A stretch of 64,000 nucleotides of DNA, taken from NCBI RefSeq assembly GCF_003151135.1, contig NZ_QEQK01000016.1:14053-78052 (forward strand), given 5' to 3'. The translations under genes were made by a program, and so were the position numbers. The notes below the pieces were generated by a model that was not told the DNA's origin, searched no databases, and saw only the letters and a program-made list of their open reading frames with translations. Below, piece by piece: positions 4,966 through 12,712 of this stretch; position 1 is the stretch's first letter; each line of letters begins with the position of its first letter. The stretch comes from Abyssibacter profundi. GTDB taxonomy: Bacteria; Pseudomonadota; Gammaproteobacteria; Nevskiales; OUC007.

Positions 4966-7410
4966 TTACGGTGCCGACAATCGAACCACCCCTGATTCGA
5001 TCGCAACAGATTCAAGGCGGTTGTCGCGGAAGACTGCTGCGGTTCCGCTGAACGTTGCCTCCAGAAGACCGCCGCTAATCGACGTCACGGTGATCTCGCA
5101 GCCCGTATCGCCGGATACGGCGAAAAAGTCGACGCCATCGTTGAGCGAGATTTCGGTATTAACCGGTTCATCATTCCCGGCAAAACGGCAGGCGTGGGTG
5201 CCCACTTCGAGCGGGGCCCGCATCGTCCAGCGACGGGTCGCGTTATCTGGGCCTTGCGTATCAGTCACCGCCAGGCCGAAGTAACCATTACCCATATCGT
5301 TGTACGGTGAGGCCGACACGATGGTCGTGCGAATGCCATCCACCCGCCCGGAGACACCCGTCTCGCCCATTGCCAACGCGGCATCATCCGACGGATTCCC
5401 GGACGCATTGGGCGTCGCAGGATCGTAGTAGAAATAACCGTCGGTCACCGGCAGCTGGGTGACGTTATCGTTGGCGATCAGTGACCCGGTGAAGTAGCCC
5501 TCGACAATCGGACCGGCCTGGACCACTTTGATGGTGCACTGACCGTCCTGGGATCCGACACCAGCGTCAGGCCCGGTTCCGGCACCTTGCAAATGCTGCA
5601 ACTTGACCGCATCCGCAGCCGAGGCATCGTCGGCGCACTCGTAGGTGCCGGCGGCCTTGGTCACGGTTAAGCGCCACTGGCTGGACGGTCCGGTTGCCTG
5701 TAGGTAGAAGGTATTGCCGTTGTCCATCAGCACGATGTCATCGGGGCTGGTGTACTCGACACCGTCCACGATCCCGGTGACGCCGTTGTTGACCAGCGCC
5801 GCAGGTCCATTGTTGCCCACTTCGGGGTCATTGCTCTCCGCGCCCTGGAGGCTGACCGCGACCTCGCTGCCGGGGCTATCCAGCCCGTCGGTCAGAAAGC
5901 GCACCCGCTCCAGATTGCCGTCGCCATCCAGATAGAGATCGTAGGTTGGCTGGTTGCCGTCGCCTTGCACCACCATCTGAATACCCACACGCATGCAACA
6001 GTCGATGCGATCGAAGACAGCCTGGTAATCCGATGGTCCGAACTGGATGCCGTCGTCATAGTCGACTGCACCGTTTTCGTCGATCACCACCGTGCCACGG
6101 GTGTGGGTGCCATCGAGCACGGTATCGACCGCATAGGTACCGGCCAGCGCAGTCACCAACTCGATCCCGGCCGGACCCTCGCCGCCGCCGGACGACTGAT
6201 CGACCAACTGCCCCAAGAAGCTAGGAATCCCCTGCGACAATGGATTCGACGCATCGCCGATATTGATTTCGTTGAACGCGCCGGTGGCGTTGTCAGACAA
6301 CGCGTATTCCAGGTTAGCCGCCGTATCCAGCCAGATGATCTCTGAAGTCTGCGGACTGCCACCGATCTCACGAACGAACGGGTCGGTGAGCACCGGGCCT
6401 TCGCCGATCTGCAAGGTGGTGTCGGACACGATCACCATCACCATGTCGCCGTCGGCATAGGGAGACCCGGACTGGTTCTCGGTCGCGGTCAGCGTGTACT
6501 GGCTGACGAGTCCGGCGTTGACCGTGCCGGGGGCGGTTGTCCCGTTAGGCCCGGCATTGCCACCGCCGCCGCCTGACGTGCTGACCTGCGTCGACGCCGG
6601 GGCCAGCTGTGAGGCATTGGCCTGCAGGTCTGCATTCGCATAGGTGTTCGCTGCCGTGGTCAATGCGGCGGCCATGTCGCTCAGAAAATCACTGTAGGGG
6701 GCATTCGCAACGCTGGCGTCGATGGCTCCATCTGCGGCATCGGCCACCAGGGCGCTCAGTACAGCCAGCGCCGGCGACGGCTCACTCGCTGCGACCGTGG
6801 CCAGTGCAGCGAGGTAAAGAGCGTAGCGACCGGCATCCGTGTTCGTCAGCGACCCGGCAGCGGTGGTCGCGCCCACCGGGGTCGGTAATGAGGTGATGCT
6901 GCTCAGGCCGGGCGCCAGCGCGGCGCGGATCGCCTCATTCGCCGCGTTGACCTCGGTCACAGTGAGCGGAAACAGCCCGTCGTTAACGGCTGTTTGGTAA
7001 GCCAACTCGGTGAGCGTCGTCACCGCAATCGACGACCCGGGCGCCGGCGCAAGGGCGCGCAGTCGGGCGCCTGCCGGAAATGGTCGGAGCGTGCCAGCGG
7101 CCTCGTCGAAGTACATCGCGTCGATGTCATCGCCGAGAACCTCGACGACCACGGGGCCCGCGTAGGACGAGGTCACCGTCACGTTGACGGCGCCGTCGGC
7201 ACCCGTCGAACCGGTGCCGATCAACGTCGTGCCGTCGGCTTGGTAGAAGTTGACGTCGGCATCCGTCACCACGCCCAATGAGGCGGCACCGCCGAGTGTC
7301 GTGGCCATCGGGGCCGGTGAATCGGCATCGATGTCGATAGACGCGTTGTCGCAGCCAGTCGCCAGGATCGCGAGGCCGAGGGACAGGGCGCAGGACTTGA
7401 ATTGTTTCAT
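4966..7410 (-). CDS. Large secreted lipoprotein with N-terminal regulatory-like fold and shared repeat module
   Basis: The protein has 814 residues. ATG 7410 was chosen over an in-frame upstream start because it begins directly with a lipoprotein signal peptide (lipobox ATGC) and has GGAG about 10 bases before it. After the lipobox comes a beta-rich region resembling a carboxypeptidase-regulatory/transthyretin-like domain (NVTVTSSYAGPVVVEV), then an alanine-rich helical segment (residues about 120-280), a Gly-rich linker and, around residues 305-410, a module also found in the adjacent giant lipoprotein (EIIWLD, EYALSDN, FNEINIGD). The rest is beta-rich with a CC pair and an ECAD region. No enzyme motif is visible. 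It is the same orientation as the downstream giant gene but separated from it by a terminator, and has its own palindrome upstream. Function unknown. Confidence 0.85.
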   Translation of the reverse strand: MKQFKSCALSLGLAILATGCDNASIDIDADSPAPMATTLGGAASLGVVTDADVNFYQADGTTLIGTGSTGADGAVNVTVTSSYAGPVVVEVLGDDIDAMYFDEAAGTLRPFPAGARLRALAPAPGSSIAVTTLTELAYQTAVNDGLFPLTVTEVNAANEAIRAALAPGLSSITSLPTPVGATTAAGSLTNTDAGRYALYLAALATVAASEPSPALAVLSALVADAADGAIDASVANAPYSDFLSDMAAALTTAANTYANADLQANASQLAPASTQVSTSGGGGGNAGPNGTTAPGTVNAGLVSQYTLTATENQSGSPYADGDMVMVIVSDTTLQIGEGPVLTDPFVREIGGSPQTSEIIWLDTAANLEYALSDNATGAFNEINIGDASNPLSQGIPSFLGQLVDQSSGGGEGPAGIELVTALAGTYAVDTVLDGTHTRGTVVIDENGAVDYDDGIQFGPSDYQAVFDRIDCCMRVGIQMVVQGDGNQPTYDLYLDGDGNLERVRFLTDGLDSPGSEVAVSLQGAESNDPEVGNNGPAALVNNGVTGIVDGVEYTSPDDIVLMDNGNTFYLQATGPSSQWRLTVTKAAGTYECADDASAADAVKLQHLQGAGTGPDAGVGSQDGQCTIKVVQAGPIVEGYFTGSLIANDNVTQLPVTDGYFYYDPATPNASGNPSDDAALAMGETGVSGRVDGIRTTIVSASPYNDMGNGYFGLAVTDTQGPDNATRRWTMRAPLEVGTHACRFAGNDEPVNTEISLNDGVDFFAVSGDTGCEITVTSISGGLLEATFSGTAAVFRDNRLESVAIESGVVRLSAP

Positions 7411-7501
7411 GACGAATCTCGCTCCGTAAAACCAGTCGCAGCGCCCGCCGGGGCGGTACGCCGCCCTTCGCATCGTCACCGGCTCAACGTAACCGGGCTA
7501 T

Positions 7502-7517: not shown

Positions 7518-7627
7518 AGCCCACACCGATACGCTTGTGATTTGCGTCCCGGCTTTCATAATCGGGGCTTGGGTGAGCGCCGTTCTTCGGGAAGCACCGA
7601 CGGCCATCACAGCGACGGGGAGTGTTC

Positions 7628-8473
7628 GTGGGGGACGCAGGTTCGCAAGCACAGGCCATGGGCCGTTCGACCGCTGCCCGACGCCTGATCGCAGTGCCCG
7701 GCGCGCTGGGCCGTAATGTGGTCGCGTCGCTGTTGTTTGTTGTGGACCTGGTCACGTTCATGCTGCAGGCGCTGCTGCACTGGTGGCAGCGCAGCCCGAT
7801 TCGCAACCGGGCCACACGCCGGGCGGTGGTGGTGCAGATTCTGTTCAGTGGTATCGATGCCCTGCCGCTGCTTCTGCTGATCGGATTGGCGATGGGCATG
7901 GCGCTGACACCACCGCTGCTCATGGCCGGCAATTCCATTGGTGAATCGGAGGAGCTGGCACGCCTGCTGGTCGTGGGTCTGGCGCTGCAGCTCGGCCCAC
8001 TGCTGACCGCATTGATCCTCATCGGCCGCAGCGGCTCGGCCATTGCGGTGGACCTGGCCCAGATGAAGCTCAACCGCGAAGTCGCCGCGCTGGACCTGCT
8101 GGGCATTCGGCTCACCGATTATTTTGTCGCCCCACGCCTGATCGGCGGCGCCATCGCCCAGCTGGCGCTATCCATCTACTTCGGGGCTGTCGCCTTGATT
8201 GGCGGCGGACTGGTCAGCGCGTTGGTGTTCAGCGCCGAGCACCTGGCCCTGCTGCCCGCACTGGCGGGCGCGATCACTCCCGGCGATGGCGCCATTTTCG
8301 TGATCAAGAACCTGATTTTCGGCCTGATCGTCACGGGCACCGCCTGTTTTTGTGCGCTCAAGGTCGAGGTGTCCCGCACCGAAGTCCCCCAACGCACCCA
8401 GCAGGCAATCGCATCCAGCTACGCGCTGGTGTTCGTCATCGCCGCCCTGTTTTCGTTGTTGGAACTGCCATGA
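7628..8473 (+). CDS. MlaE-family ABC permease of an MCE lipid transport system
   Basis: The protein has 281 residues and the MlaE fold: an N-terminal amphipathic segment, then five to six hydrophobic segments and the family core LLTALILIGRSGSAIAVDLAQMK with a following region that sets subunit contacts. It forms the inner-membrane channel that moves lipids between inner membrane and an MCE ring. GTG 7628 is preferred to GTG 7622 because GGGGAG at 7617-7622 is then correctly spaced; ATG 7658 is another option. It opens a four-gene operon in which each stop overlaps the next start as ATGA. Confidence 0.85.
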   Translation: MGDAGSQAQAMGRSTAARRLIAVPGALGRNVVASLLFVVDLVTFMLQALLHWWQRSPIRNRATRRAVVVQILFSGIDALPLLLLIGLAMGMALTPPLLMAGNSIGESEELARLLVVGLALQLGPLLTALILIGRSGSAIAVDLAQMKLNREVAALDLLGIRLTDYFVAPRLIGGAIAQLALSIYFGAVALIGGGLVSALVFSAEHLALLPALAGAITPGDGAIFVIKNLIFGLIVTGTACFCALKVEVSRTEVPQRTQQAIASSYALVFVIAALFSLLELP

Positions 8474-9219
8474 CGCTGGCGCTGCAATGTCGTGGCCTGC
8501 AACCGCAGGGCGAGCCGCCGCTGGCACCGTTGGACCTGGATGTTCGCGCCGGCAGCGTGGTCGTCATCGCCGCTCGCAGTGGTGCGCAGCGGAATCAACT
8601 GCTGCTGGCACTGGCTGCGCTGGAACCGGCGCATTGCCGGGCGCACATGATGTCCGGGGTGGATTTGCTGAAGCCGGACCGTCGACGCCGGGGGCGCCGC
8701 CCCACCGGCTCGGGGTTCATCAGCCACGCATTCCCCTTGATGAGCAATCTCAACGCCTGCGCGAATGTGATGCTGCCGCTGATGTATCACCGCAAGATGC
8801 CCCGGCGCGAAGCCATGTCCGCCGCTCACGCATTGCTCGATGCCGTGGACTTTCGCGCCGACCGCACGGCGCTGCCGGCCTTTCTCGACCGCAGATCGCG
8901 CTGGCAGGCCCTGCTGGCCCGGGCGCTGGGCAACCGCCCCCCGTTGCTGTTCATCGACGAACCTTTCGAACTCGACAGCGTGGAGCACTGGACGTCTATT
9001 GGTGACTTGCTGCTGTCATTGCAGCAACAGTTCGATTGCACGCTGATTGTGGAGACGGCCAACCTCGAATTCGCGCGTCACCACGCGGAACAAACCGTCT
9101 ACGCAGACACCCAGACGGCCCTGGTACTCGCGCCCGAAGAAGCGTTTTCGCCGGATAACCCCTATGCCAACTGGACGGCGTACCTGCGCCGGCTTGGCAC
9201 CTACCCGATACCCGCATGA
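8470..9219 (+). CDS. Degenerate MlaF-like ABC ATPase subunit (probable pseudo-ATPase)
   Basis: The 249-residue protein takes the ATPase position of the MCE operon, with ATGA overlaps at both ends. Overall layout is that of an ABC nucleotide-binding domain, but key motifs are gone. The Walker A site reads AARSGAQRNQ (residues 34-43) with no GK[ST]. The Q-loop region reads GFISHAFPL without Q. The signature region reads FLDRRSRWQALLARAL in place of LSGGQ. The switch histidine region reads LIVETANLE in place of VTHD. Only Walker B (PLLFIDEP, residues 158-165) with its glutamate is intact. The frame is undamaged and the gene sits in a tightly coupled operon, so it is probably expressed. Whether it hydrolyses ATP is doubtful. 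Confidence 0.75.
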   Translation: MTLALQCRGLQPQGEPPLAPLDLDVRAGSVVVIAARSGAQRNQLLLALAALEPAHCRAHMMSGVDLLKPDRRRRGRRPTGSGFISHAFPLMSNLNACANVMLPLMYHRKMPRREAMSAAHALLDAVDFRADRTALPAFLDRRSRWQALLARALGNRPPLLFIDEPFELDSVEHWTSIGDLLLSLQQQFDCTLIVETANLEFARHHAEQTVYADTQTALVLAPEEAFSPDNPYANWTAYLRRLGTYPIPA

Positions 9220-10253
9220 CCACATCTGATCACAGCCGCCCCGCAACCGGCACCGCCCCGCCCCGCCGCGTGCATTACGTGCACACGCTCGACTACAGCT
9301 GGCAGGAGCGGCTGGTCGGAGCGTTCGTGATCGGGGCGTTTTTGCTCCTGATCGCAGGCCTGGTCTTCAACGACCGCATCGGCTTTCTGCTCACCGACAG
9401 CTTCGAACTCCATGTGCTCACCGACCGGGCCGAAGGTCTGAGCACCCGGACGCGGGTCTACGCCTCGGGCGTTGAGGTGGGGCGTGTTCGCGCCATTGCG
9501 GTGGACGAGGCGGGCCGGATCGACGTGGCACTGCAGATTCGCGCCGCCTATGGCGACCTGATCCGCGAGGACTCGGTGGCCACAGTCGGGGCACCGTCCA
9601 TGCTGGGCAGTGCCACCGTGGACATCAGCGGCGGCAGCGAAGGCGCGCCCCCGATTCTGCCCGGCGCACGGCTGCGGGTGCAGCCCGGCGCTTCGTTGAA
9701 CGATGCGATCAGTGAAATCGGCCCGGCGGTGCAAAATCTTGCGGACATCCTCAACCAGCTGAATGCACCGAATGCGGACGGCACGCCACAGTTGCAGCAA
9801 ATGGTGGAGGATGTGGCCGGCGTGACGGCCAATCTCCACCAGCTCAGCGACACGCTGGTCACCGGGGACGGCAGCCTGCCCCGCCTGATCCGTGAGCCGG
9901 ATGCACTGGCGTCGCTCGAACAAACGCTGGATAACGCCCAGGCGCTCACCCGAAACCTTCAGGAACAAATGCAGGCCATCGAACCGATGATGCAGGATGT
10001 GGCGACGATGACGGCGCAGTTGCCGCAACTCAGCGAACGCCTGATGGCGCTGGAAGCCCATGCCAGCGAGCTCATGGCCACATTGGCCGACCAAGGCGAG
10101 GCAGTGCCGGGCATGGTTCGCGATATGCAGGCGCTGCTGGATGAAGTCAGCAAGACGGTTGAAGCCGTCAACACGACCTGGCCGATCTCGCGCGGCGTGG
10201 AGCGGCAAGAAGCCGCCGAACGCCCCACCCGCACCGTGCTCCCGCCGCAATGA
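9216..10253 (+). CDS. MCE/MlaD-domain lipid-binding protein
   Basis: The 345-residue protein has an N-terminal cytoplasmic stretch, one membrane anchor (residues about 35-52, AFVIGAFLLLIAGLVF) and a single MlaD/MCE domain (residues about 62-155) with the usual G-L---T-V--SGVEVG core. A long helical region follows (residues about 160-330), rich in Leu/Gln/Met heptads, expected to form a tunnel or needle as in other long MCE proteins. It ends in a charged Pro-rich tail. It probably forms the hexameric periplasmic ring on the permease encoded by the first gene. ATGA overlaps link it to both neighbours. Confidence 0.88.
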   Translation: MTTSDHSRPATGTAPPRRVHYVHTLDYSWQERLVGAFVIGAFLLLIAGLVFNDRIGFLLTDSFELHVLTDRAEGLSTRTRVYASGVEVGRVRAIAVDEAGRIDVALQIRAAYGDLIREDSVATVGAPSMLGSATVDISGGSEGAPPILPGARLRVQPGASLNDAISEIGPAVQNLADILNQLNAPNADGTPQLQQMVEDVAGVTANLHQLSDTLVTGDGSLPRLIREPDALASLEQTLDNAQALTRNLQEQMQAIEPMMQDVATMTAQLPQLSERLMALEAHASELMATLADQGEAVPGMVRDMQALLDEVSKTVEAVNTTWPISRGVERQEAAERPTRTVLPPQ

Positions 10254-11200
10254 GACGTCTGATTCCAAGCCTGCTGGCCCTCGCCCTGCTGACGGCCTGT
10301 GCCGGTCGCAGCGGACCGCAGACACCGCCTCCCAGTGACGCCCAACGGCTGCTCGCTGCCGGCCAGCAGGCACTGGCCGACGAGCATTTCAGCATGGCAT
10401 TGGGCCGGCTGCAGGACGCCCGCGTGCTCGCCCGCAGTCTCGATGACACCGAAACACAGATTCGCGCTGTGATGGGCCAGATCGATATCGCCCTGATCCG
10501 CGAACAATCCGACACGGCCGCGGCATTGGCCGGCACGCTGGATGCCCTGGCACGGCGGGATGGCGTCTCGGCCCTGACCCGCGCCCAGACCACGTACATG
10601 CTGGCGCGCGTTGATGCGGCGCATGGACGGTCTGCGCTGGCGCGACAACGCATCGCACCGCTGATTCAGCGTCGGGATGCACTGGGCCAGGTGGCGCGGC
10701 TGCTGGACTGCCGGGAGCTGCTGGCTGCCGGACCGTCCAACTGTGCGGAGCCGTTGCATGCCAGCGAGCCGCTGCTCAACGCCCGTATTCAACGTCTGCG
10801 GGCCGAGGCGGCCGTGCATGACCACCAGGCCGAACAGGCGATGCAGTGGCTGGAGTCGGCACGAGGCCTGTACCAGCAACTCGGTCAACGCACTGGAGTC
10901 GCAGCCACGCTGGAGACACTGGCCCAGGTCGCCGCCCGCGCGGGTGACTGGCCCCGCGCCTGTGACGCCATGACCCGCGGGCTGGGCGCCAACCTGGGGA
11001 TTCGCAATGCACCCGCCGCGCGGCGTCTGGTCGGCTCATTGGCGCAGCACTGCGCCACCGAACCGCATCGCCAGGCGGTACTGGATCAACTGCGCCTGGC
11101 CCTGCCCGAAGAGCGCCCGGCGCGCTGGCATCGCGCGGCGGCGCTGCTGGCGCAGTACGAGGCAACGCTGCACAGCCCCGCGCCTGCCCGCCCTCGGTAG
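10250..11200 (+). CDS. TPR-like lipoprotein, fourth gene of the MCE operon
   Basis: The 316-residue protein starts with a lipoprotein signal (LLTACAGR). The rest is almost all alpha-helical with repeating 34-38 residue helix pairs rich in Ala, Leu and Arg (for example LLAAGQQALADEHFSMALGRLQDA), as in TPR proteins. The stop/start overlap ATGA with the MCE gene implies a job in the same system. Its place is where other MCE operons carry a PqiC/ABC-auxiliary lipoprotein, but no sequence similarity to that family is evident. An outer-membrane docking or assembly role is inference. Confidence 0.7.
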   Translation: MRRLIPSLLALALLTACAGRSGPQTPPPSDAQRLLAAGQQALADEHFSMALGRLQDARVLARSLDDTETQIRAVMGQIDIALIREQSDTAAALAGTLDALARRDGVSALTRAQTTYMLARVDAAHGRSALARQRIAPLIQRRDALGQVARLLDCRELLAAGPSNCAEPLHASEPLLNARIQRLRAEAAVHDHQAEQAMQWLESARGLYQQLGQRTGVAATLETLAQVAARAGDWPRACDAMTRGLGANLGIRNAPAARRLVGSLAQHCATEPHRQAVLDQLRLALPEERPARWHRAAALLAQYEATLHSPAPARPR

Positions 11201-11298
11201 ACGCTTGCCGCTGGTCGTGGCCTCAGGTCAGACTTGCCGACCATGTTCACCTCCGTGCTATCAAGCCCCTCGCCACGCCCCTCTTGGTGTGGCCGGCC

Positions 11299-12042
11299 AT
11301 GACCTTCTGGCTGGCATTGGCGGTGGGGGTATTGGCCCTTGGCCTGGTCGTGCTGGGTGTGATGCTCAAACGGCAGCAGGCCGCCATCCGAGCCTTGCAG
11401 GCCTCGGCCGACTCGCTGAGCACGGCGCAGTCCACACAGGAAGCCATCGCCTCCGAACGCGACCGCATCTACCGGGATTTGCATGACGACATCGGCGGAC
11501 GGCTGCTGACGCTGGCCCACGGCAGCAGCGATCCGGACACGGCCGCGATTGCCCGGGACGTGCTCCAGGACCTGCGCGCCGTCGTCTCCCGCACCCAGGC
11601 TGCGGAGGGCTCATTGCTGGAGATCCTGGCTCAGATCAGAGACGAGATGGAGCAGCGCCTGGACACCATGGGGGTTGCGCTGATCTGGCAGCAAACCACC
11701 GACATTCCCGACCCCGACCTGCCGGAGGCGGATGCCCTGCACCTGTATCGCATCGCGCGCGAGGCCATCACGAATGGCGTGCGCCACGCCGAGGCCTCCC
11801 GTATTCGTGTCCGCGTCAGCGCGGCCGCCGACCTGCTGCTCATCGACTTCACCGACGATGGCGAGGGCATGCCGCCGGACCGCGTGGGGTCCGGTCGTGG
11901 CACGGCCAGCATGCGACAGCGTGCGGAAGAGCTGCATGGGAACATCGACTGGAACCCAGGCACCGAAGGCGGCACCAAGGTGGTCTTGCGGGTGCCGATC
12001 CCCCCATCTGAGGGGGGCGCCGGCGCGGGCAATCCCGCATGA
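11299..12042 (+). CDS. Two-component sensor histidine kinase, NarL/DegS type (HisKA_3)
   Basis: The 247-residue protein has a single N-terminal membrane segment (FWLALAVGVLALGLVVLGVML), a short coiled-coil-like linker and then the HisKA_3 dimerisation helix with the phospho-acceptor histidine in ERDRIYRDLHDDIGG. The HATPase domain shows an N box (REAITNGVRHAE), DDGEGMP and a GRGTASMRQRAEEL lid. There is no periplasmic or PAS sensing domain, so the signal must come through the membrane segment or a partner. ATG 11299 is chosen; TTG/GTG codons lie just upstream. The regulator gene follows after 7 bases. A C-run/G-run palindrome lies within the last codons. Confidence 0.85.
   Translation: MTFWLALAVGVLALGLVVLGVMLKRQQAAIRALQASADSLSTAQSTQEAIASERDRIYRDLHDDIGGRLLTLAHGSSDPDTAAIARDVLQDLRAVVSRTQAAEGSLLEILAQIRDEMEQRLDTMGVALIWQQTTDIPDPDLPEADALHLYRIAREAITNGVRHAEASRIRVRVSAAADLLLIDFTDDGEGMPPDRVGSGRGTASMRQRAEELHGNIDWNPGTEGGTKVVLRVPIPPSEGGAGAGNPA
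12000..12017. promoter_or_regulatory. C6-N6-G6 palindrome just upstream of the response regulator gene
   Basis: Six C, ATCTGA, six G, lying inside the 3' end of the kinase gene and ending 32 bases before the regulator ATG at 12050. The C-run, short AT-rich centre and G-run match the sites before the two giant lipoprotein genes. It may be an autoregulatory operator, or a hairpin affecting translation of the regulator. It also encodes the kinase's Pro-Pro-Ser-Glu-Gly-Gly tail, so selection on protein cannot be excluded. Confidence 0.4.
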
Positions 12043-12049
12043 TCCACCC

Positions 12050-12712
12050 ATGACTGAATCCACCGCCACCCCAGCCCTGCAGCATGGCTTGGTCGTCGAA
12101 GACCTGGAAGCCTCCGCGGCCTGGCTTTGTGATGTGCTGGAGGAAGTCTTCCCCGAGATGGCGGTGGCCCAGGCGGGCTGTGTGGCCGAGGGCCGGCAGG
12201 CCATCGAAGCCTGCACGCCGCAGCTCGCACTCATCGACCTCGGCCTGCCGGACGGCTCGGGCATCGAACTGATTCGCCAGCTGGCTCATGGCGGTCAGAC
12301 GCCGCACATCATCGTGTCCACGATTTACGCGGATGATCGCCACCTGTTTCCGGCACTGCGCGCCGGAGCCACGGGCTATCTGCTCAAGGACCAGGCCCGC
12401 GAACGGGTCACCAAGTCGCTGCGTGGCATTGCCGCCGGCGAACCCCCGTTGTCGCCTCGGGTCGCCCAGCGCCTGCTGCGCATCTTTGCCCAGGAGCAAA
12501 CCGAACCCGAGGTGCCGTTGTCACCGCGCGAACGTGAGGTGCTGACACTCATCGCCAAGGGCTTTCGCTTGCCCGATGTTGCCGAGACCATGGGGGTGAC
12601 CCGCAACACCGCCGCCGGCTACATCAAGGCGGTGTACCGCAAGCTCAATATTTCCAGCCGGGCCGAAGCCGCGCTGGAAGCCAGCCGGCTGGGTCTGGTC
12701 GGCGACCTCTAA
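12050..12712 (+). CDS. LuxR/NarL-family response regulator
   Basis: The 220-residue protein has a receiver domain at about 13-130: acidic pair VED, phospho-acceptor aspartate in ALIDLGLPDGSG, Thr/Ser switch in HIIVSTIYAD and lysine in YLLKDQ. A LuxR-type helix-turn-helix follows (LSPREREVLTLIAKGF through RNTAAGYIKAVYRKL, residues about 153-210). It should act as a dimer on an inverted repeat. It pairs with the kinase immediately upstream, and a matching candidate palindrome lies just before the gene and before two lipoprotein genes. Confidence 0.9.
   Translation: MTESTATPALQHGLVVEDLEASAAWLCDVLEEVFPEMAVAQAGCVAEGRQAIEACTPQLALIDLGLPDGSGIELIRQLAHGGQTPHIIVSTIYADDRHLFPALRAGATGYLLKDQARERVTKSLRGIAAGEPPLSPRVAQRLLRIFAQEQTEPEVPLSPREREVLTLIAKGFRLPDVAETMGVTRNTAAGYIKAVYRKLNISSRAEAALEASRLGLVGDL

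Follow-up and report, generated by a model that had tools for sequence, protein, structure and literature searches.

Can an MCE transporter retain the NBD of its ABC permease after the residues for ATP hydrolysis have gone from it? This question is raised by an operon of Abyssibacter profundi, located in a stretch of 64,000 nucleotides (contig NZ_QEQK01000016.1 of assembly GCF_003151135.1) that was analysed as a whole and is called the window here. The operon has the MlaE-type permease (E) and the MCE protein (D) of an MCE/Mla-type ABC transporter, and an intact MlaF-type ATPase is absent from it. Its four genes lie on the + strand in the order E, F, D and TPR lipoprotein and are ATGA-coupled. 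The genes and the segments discussed below are:

7622..8473, + strand: E, MlaE-type permease (PF02405, 140 bits; the orthologue in G002, a genome of the same genus, is 85% identical)
8027..8104, + strand: E residues 136-161, RSGSAIAVDLAQMKLNREVAALDLLG, interpreted as the TM2-TM3 coupling-helix region contacting the NBD (conservation and PMC7790496)
8470..9219, + strand: F, putative pseudo-ATPase, an ABC NBD homologue without Walker A, Q-loop Gln, signature and switch His (profiles and alignment)
8572..8598, + strand: degenerate Walker A ARSGAQRNQ, F residues 35-43 (alignment column of GPSGIGKTT)
8725..8727, + strand: Q-loop position of F, His86 for Gln (alignment)
8734..8790, + strand: F residues 89-107, PLMSNLNACANVMLPLMYH, best-conserved segment of F in the clade and putative permease-docking surface (column conservation)
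8884..8907, + strand: degenerate ABC signature FLDRRSRW, F residues 139-146, replacing ELSGGMxR (alignment)
8944..8964, + strand: retained Walker B LLFIDEP, F residues 159-165 (alignment)
9049..9069, + strand: switch (H-loop) region VETANLE, F residues 194-200, Ala197 for His (alignment)
9216..10253, + strand: D, MCE (MlaD-type) protein with one MCE domain, residues 64-140 (PF02470, 54.5 bits)
10250..11200, + strand: TPR lipoprotein, lipobox LTAC, Cys17, fourth gene of the operon (PF13424, 21.6 bits, below cut-off)

The reading frame of F (8470-9219, +) encodes 249 aa from an ATG start and has no internal stop. Its start overlaps the permease stop in an ATGA at 8470-8473, the start of D overlaps its end in another ATGA at 9216-9219, and the start of the TPR lipoprotein overlaps the end of D at 10250-10253. 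The initial annotation, made from the letters of the window, was thus right in describing an intact ATPase gene within an ATGA-coupled operon. The permease is listed with a GTG start at 7622, but the ATG at 7658 could be the true start; MlaE is its sole Pfam match (residues 70-279). Beyond the MCE domain, D continues for about 200 residues with only weak matches to families of coiled-coil type, and the lipoprotein matches nothing in Pfam but TPR_12 and SNAP at E ≤ 0.1. The operon is flanked by a large divergent ORF of 837 aa with the lipobox-like start LGLAILATGC (4966-7479, - strand) and, on its 3' side, by genes for a histidine kinase and a response regulator (11284-12712). The kinase is also found downstream in G002 (75% identical) and was seen in none of the other loci.

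The motifs of F were compared with a canonical set of 45 sequences, consisting of 44 MlaF proteins from fetched loci and E. coli MlaF. The E. coli MlaF and MlaE sequences served for numbering, as query and as one tree row each. All 45 canonical proteins keep the Walker A Gly and Lys, Q92, SGGM with G147 and G148, D169, E170 and H203. In F of the window, Walker A has changed from GPSGxGKTT to ARSGAQRNQ (K47 to R41 and T48 to N42, E. coli MlaF numbering first), the Q-loop Q92 is H86, the signature LSGGM reads LDRRS (S146, G147 and G148 to D140, R141 and R142) and the switch H203 is A197, while Walker B with the catalytic Glu is intact (LLFIDEP, D163 and E164). Both the set of missing motifs listed in the initial annotation, with Walker B left over, and its statement that MlaF-type subunits keep these motifs are therefore borne out by the alignment.

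Is F then still an ABC protein? Against Pfam ABC_tran it scores 21 bits, which is below the cut-off of 25 bits. Since NCBIfam LolD nevertheless aligns with residues 19-209 at 3.5e-20, F is by its profile matches a real but eroded ABC NBD. The PDB chain YbbA aligns over nearly the same part of the protein (residues 18-203, 1e-18). An AlphaFold2 model of F, computed from a five-sequence alignment, reached a mean pLDDT of 45 only, and for this reason our statements on fold and docking of F rest on sequence profiles.

We looked for relatives with permease profiles in samples of the class, of the phylum, of two orders covered more fully and of the window's own order. The clade obtained in this way comprises 21 operons, nearly all of them from scattered relatives within the gammaproteobacterial class. 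The operons read were the window and 18 loci (L071, L073, L098-L106, L118-L124), to which L153 and L154 were added later. In the class sample, members score 190-320 bits with permease model A1 and the next match, G292, scores 129.5; nine of 369 genomes, that of the window included, reach at least 190 bits. In the phylum sample three of 398 genomes pass with model A2. Both prevalences depend on the sampling. The single other operon found in the genus, that of G002, is orthologous throughout (E 85%, F 68%, D 80% and lipoprotein 55% identical), and its F is devoid of the same motifs as that of the window. A divergent permease in G098 (L072) was dropped from the set as it has no relative of F or D adjacent to it. 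A scan of contigs for further relatives of F returned only canonical or unrelated ABC ATPases, such as those of the Luteimonas mla operons. Several near-complete genomes of the same order are without any MlaE match (G003, G006, G007, G010, G013, G016 and G021).

The arrangement of the genes is largely preserved. Nearly all loci of the clade have the order E, F, D. In G811, the lipoprotein comes after F and D, with E set apart about 2 kb downstream, and in L154 the order may differ, F being placed on the opposite strand arm in the orientation chosen for that locus. By a script check, a lipobox-bearing lipoprotein ORF lies 3' of D in 15 of 18 loci, and for L100, one of the remaining three, a relative was detected by tblastn. 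In the permease tree 19 clade permeases fall on one side of a branch with support 100/98, and in the F tree 17 clade F proteins group together with support 95/91, so that by both trees the clade is monophyletic. Both groups sit near canonical operons of the E-F type (for example in G005) and away from mlaFEDCB of the E. coli type. The exact placing of L105, L106 and L124 is unsure because their long branches were flagged.

Within this clade the loss of motifs is shared but uneven. Q92, G147 and G148 are absent from all 18 aligned F proteins, the window included, and the Q-loop Gln and both signature glycines are absent from all 20 readable ones when L153 and L154 are added. F of L100 (in G417, at about 5690-6459 on the reversed strand) was excluded from these counts, since its frame is interrupted by a shift that may be natural or a sequencing error. 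As 45 of 45 canonical proteins keep Q92, G147 and G148 and none of the 18 clade members does, the loss goes beyond chance variation. L153 and L154 were examined once the pattern had emerged, and neither has the Q-loop Gln, the signature, the catalytic Glu or the switch His. As they belong to the same genus as L101, which was already in the set, they test the pattern only modestly. The other positions vary among the 18 aligned proteins: the Walker A lysine and E170 are each kept in seven, the Walker B Asp in ten and the switch His in four. On the permease tree, the parsimony minimum is one change each for Q92, G147 and G148, three for K47, four for E170 and two for H203. With a single change for each of the former against three for K47, the signature and the Q-loop Gln most likely disappeared in the ancestor of the clade, before the repeated losses of Walker A.

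The scores with ABC_tran follow the same gradient, from 81 bits (L106) through 74, 66, 59, 50, 39, 27 (G002), 21 (window) and 17 (G811) to no match (L105). The long-branch sister L106 (5042-5758), whose operon is the only MlaE system of G292, keeps Walker A (GEHGAGKSV) and has lost the signature, the Q-loop and the switch His, and its catalytic Glu is replaced by Asn. The most eroded F seen, with 210 aa and a Walker A region that can no longer be recognised, is that of G811 (L149:5410-6039, L124:4058-4840). The total loss described in the initial annotation is accordingly true of F in the window, but only its Q-loop and signature part extends to the whole clade; the window stands at one end of a gradient, because more distant relatives (for example L073, L098 and L123) keep Walker A.

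This gradient bears on the question whether F still binds nucleotide. In members such as L073, L098, L104 and L123, F may still bind ATP, since the lysine of Walker A, the Glu of Walker B and the switch His are all present. One could therefore imagine that F, at least where Walker A and B are kept, gates the permease by binding, but not hydrolysing, ATP or another nucleotide. The pattern GxxxxGK[ST] in L073, L098, L104, L106 and L123 and the Walker B Asp in ten of the 18 proteins would agree with such a regulator. However, the Walker A lysine is lost in F of the window and in ten others, with a parsimony minimum of three changes, so ATP binding is not a general need of the clade, and we regard a nucleotide-gated regulator as improbable.

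Is the operon simply dying, and does the motif loss mark the onset of this? The faster evolution of F than of E could be read in this sense, and so could the broken frame in L100, unless it is a sequencing error. Against decay stand the intact overlapping genes, the conservation of the four-gene set in many genera over deep divergence, and the dN/dS values between the window and G002, which are 0.11 for E, 0.18 for F, 0.10 for D and 0.30 for the lipoprotein. F is thus under constraint, if a weaker one than E and D. Nor were intact motifs, which would have pointed to recent decay, seen in G002, the one operon of the same genus that was found. On the strength of the dN/dS values and the deep clade in the trees we reject recent decay and consider a dying operon very improbable indeed.

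How the constraint on F may have shifted can be judged from the wider comparison. In 135 of 136 clade pairs the identity of F is lower than that of E, the means being 32% and 45%; among 12 canonical operons of the sister branch, F is the better conserved of the two in 33 of 66 pairs, with mean identities of 46% for F and 45% for E. The pair of window and G002 alone would not reveal relaxation, because canonical pairs at 80-90% identity of E often show a lower identity of F. The faster divergence of F in the clade fits a lost catalytic constraint with another constraint remaining.

Where this remaining constraint may act is suggested by two segments. In residues 89-107 of F, with the clade consensus PLLSxLxxxxNVMLPAxYH, eight of 19 columns are conserved to at least 80% versus 13 of 230 elsewhere (Fisher 2.7e-5). 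Residues 136-161 of E have 14 of 26 positions that are fully or almost invariant, versus 43 of 257 elsewhere (Fisher 5.9e-5). Both p-values are descriptive, because the stretches were picked after the alignments had been viewed. Canonical MlaF also conserves a part of the F segment (N105, P109 and H113). The F segment follows the Q-loop, with which ABC NBDs face the transmembrane domain. The E segment corresponds by sequence to the TM2-TM3 coupling helix of the E. coli structure, and in E. coli MlaFEDB this helix of MlaE contacts MlaF (PMC7790496).

A permease with a degenerate partner could also be driven by an intact ATPase encoded elsewhere, with F as an accessory or silent half of a heterodimer. 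There is precedent for sharing, as MceG is the ATPase common to Mce1 and Mce4 (PMC9947336), and most carriers outside the window's genus also bear a canonical MlaE system whose ATPase could in principle be shared. In the host genome, however, this source is missing: in its 3.74 Mb on 47 contigs (99.75% complete), the one MlaE and the one MCE domain are both those of this operon, and no second MlaE or MCE protein was found. G002 likewise has a single MlaE. The host genome has 41 ABC_tran matches, with separate domains of one protein counted. We fetched 20 regions holding most of the high-scoring matches and compared 27 ABC proteins with the canonical set; matches on contigs C23 and C9, for example, lie outside these regions. 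The best of the 27 reaches 144 bits, whereas every canonical MlaF finds a best match of at least 222 bits within the canonical set, so that no MlaF-like spare motor was found among the 27 ABC ATPase sequences. An unrelated ABC ATPase could still serve the permease, given that the comparison covered these 27 proteins rather than every ABC match. On the other hand, F itself holds the position of the motor in the operon and retains the docking segment. Taken together, we judge a borrowed motor to be unlikely, if slightly less so than the nucleotide-gated regulator. The host genome, which is without MlaFEDB, encodes an MlaC (contig C9, 108278-108766) directly followed by MlaA (L145:6823-7521), and G001 and G003 have an MlaC without any MlaE match.

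Three readings had been offered in the initial annotation: a permease working with a borrowed ATPase, a non-hydrolytic regulatory subunit or a passive system. The search it had called for, of an intact MlaF elsewhere in the genome, weakens the first, and a non-hydrolytic subunit, an ATP-independent system or both remain. The two ATP sites of an ABC homodimer are composite, each combining Walker A from one subunit with the LSGGQ signature from its partner. A homodimer of F should have no competent site, because the signature glycines are gone in every member of the clade and, in the window, Walker A as well. We therefore prefer, with a probability of roughly two in three, the reading that F is a conserved pseudo-ATPase which can no longer form a hydrolysis site and is retained in an MCE lipid transporter for a structural role. 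Since all relatives found in other bacteria have lost parts needed for hydrolysis too, it seems that a whole branch of ABC-like transporters keeps the motor as a structural part and not as an engine. For the further step, that an old MlaE-type branch gave up ATP hydrolysis, kept the NBD as a structural clamp and works as an ATP-independent lipid conduit between membranes, we would give about even odds.

From the gene content and the conserved segments we infer how such a transporter might be assembled. F would clamp the cytosolic face of the permease, with segment 89-107 gripping the coupling helix of E. The resulting E2F2 base in the inner membrane would hold a hexamer of D, whose MCE ring would carry a helical needle reaching toward the TPR lipoprotein. 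The lipoprotein, probably located in the outer membrane, would meet the needle there. Lipids, the presumed cargo, would flow downhill, or their movement would be powered by a source other than F.

Both the direction of MCE lipid transport and the source of its energy are under debate. If the clade is indeed ATPase-dead, it would separate the structural from the catalytic role of the NBD in an MCE-ABC system and would show whether an MlaE-type permease moves lipid without ATP. The loss of both sites of a single-NBD ABC system whose subunit is nevertheless under selection is unusual. The open-licence literature that was searched yielded no description of an MCE system whose NBD or ATPase is degenerate, and a conserved degenerate NBD would thus be new relative to the MCE systems described there.

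Degenerate NBDs as such are known from other ABC proteins. Heterodimeric ABC exporters with a degenerate site keep one competent site. They resemble the present case in that degenerate NBD motifs are tolerated and conserved (PMC7756269); in contrast, the single NBD gene of our operon would give two dead sites in a homodimer. That an NBD can be more than a motor is known from mycobacterial Mce1 and Mce4, where MceG is needed for the stability of the transporters (PMC9947336). MceG differs from F in having intact motifs and ATPase activity and in being shared, whereas F is encoded in the operon and degenerate. As Walker B mutants of MceG failed to stabilise the transporters, a purely structural role is partly counted against in Mce1 and Mce4 (PMC9947336).

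MlaFEDB of E. coli and others (PDB 6xbd and related entries, PMC7790496) shares with our operon the MlaE permease by profile (140 bits), an MCE subunit and an NBD homologue. It differs in its ATPase, all motifs being kept in the 45 canonical MlaF proteins and not in F of the window, and in its genes, since the operon described here has the order E-F-D and is without MlaB and MlaC. The closest described layout is that of Mpc (MpcEFDA) from Brucella abortus, likewise a four-gene operon of E, F, D and lipoprotein, in which D has a single MCE domain and a long helical part and the fourth gene encodes the lipoprotein (PMC12436622). However, the ABC transporter of Mpc is described as well conserved, with MpcF as a homologue of MlaF, MpcA resembles PqiC and MpcE has a STAS domain (PMC12436622), whereas here F is a predicted pseudo-ATPase, the lipoprotein is of the TPR type without a PqiC match and E has no STAS match in Pfam. 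In energetic terms, the probable analogues are PqiABC and LetAB, which also combine an MCE bridge with a membrane subunit that has no ATPase domain. Their membrane subunits are PqiA and LetA instead of MlaE, they have no NBD homologue, and their chains carry several MCE domains in contrast to the one of D. PqiA and LetA are examples of MCE systems with no ATPase domain in the membrane subunit (PMC12436622).
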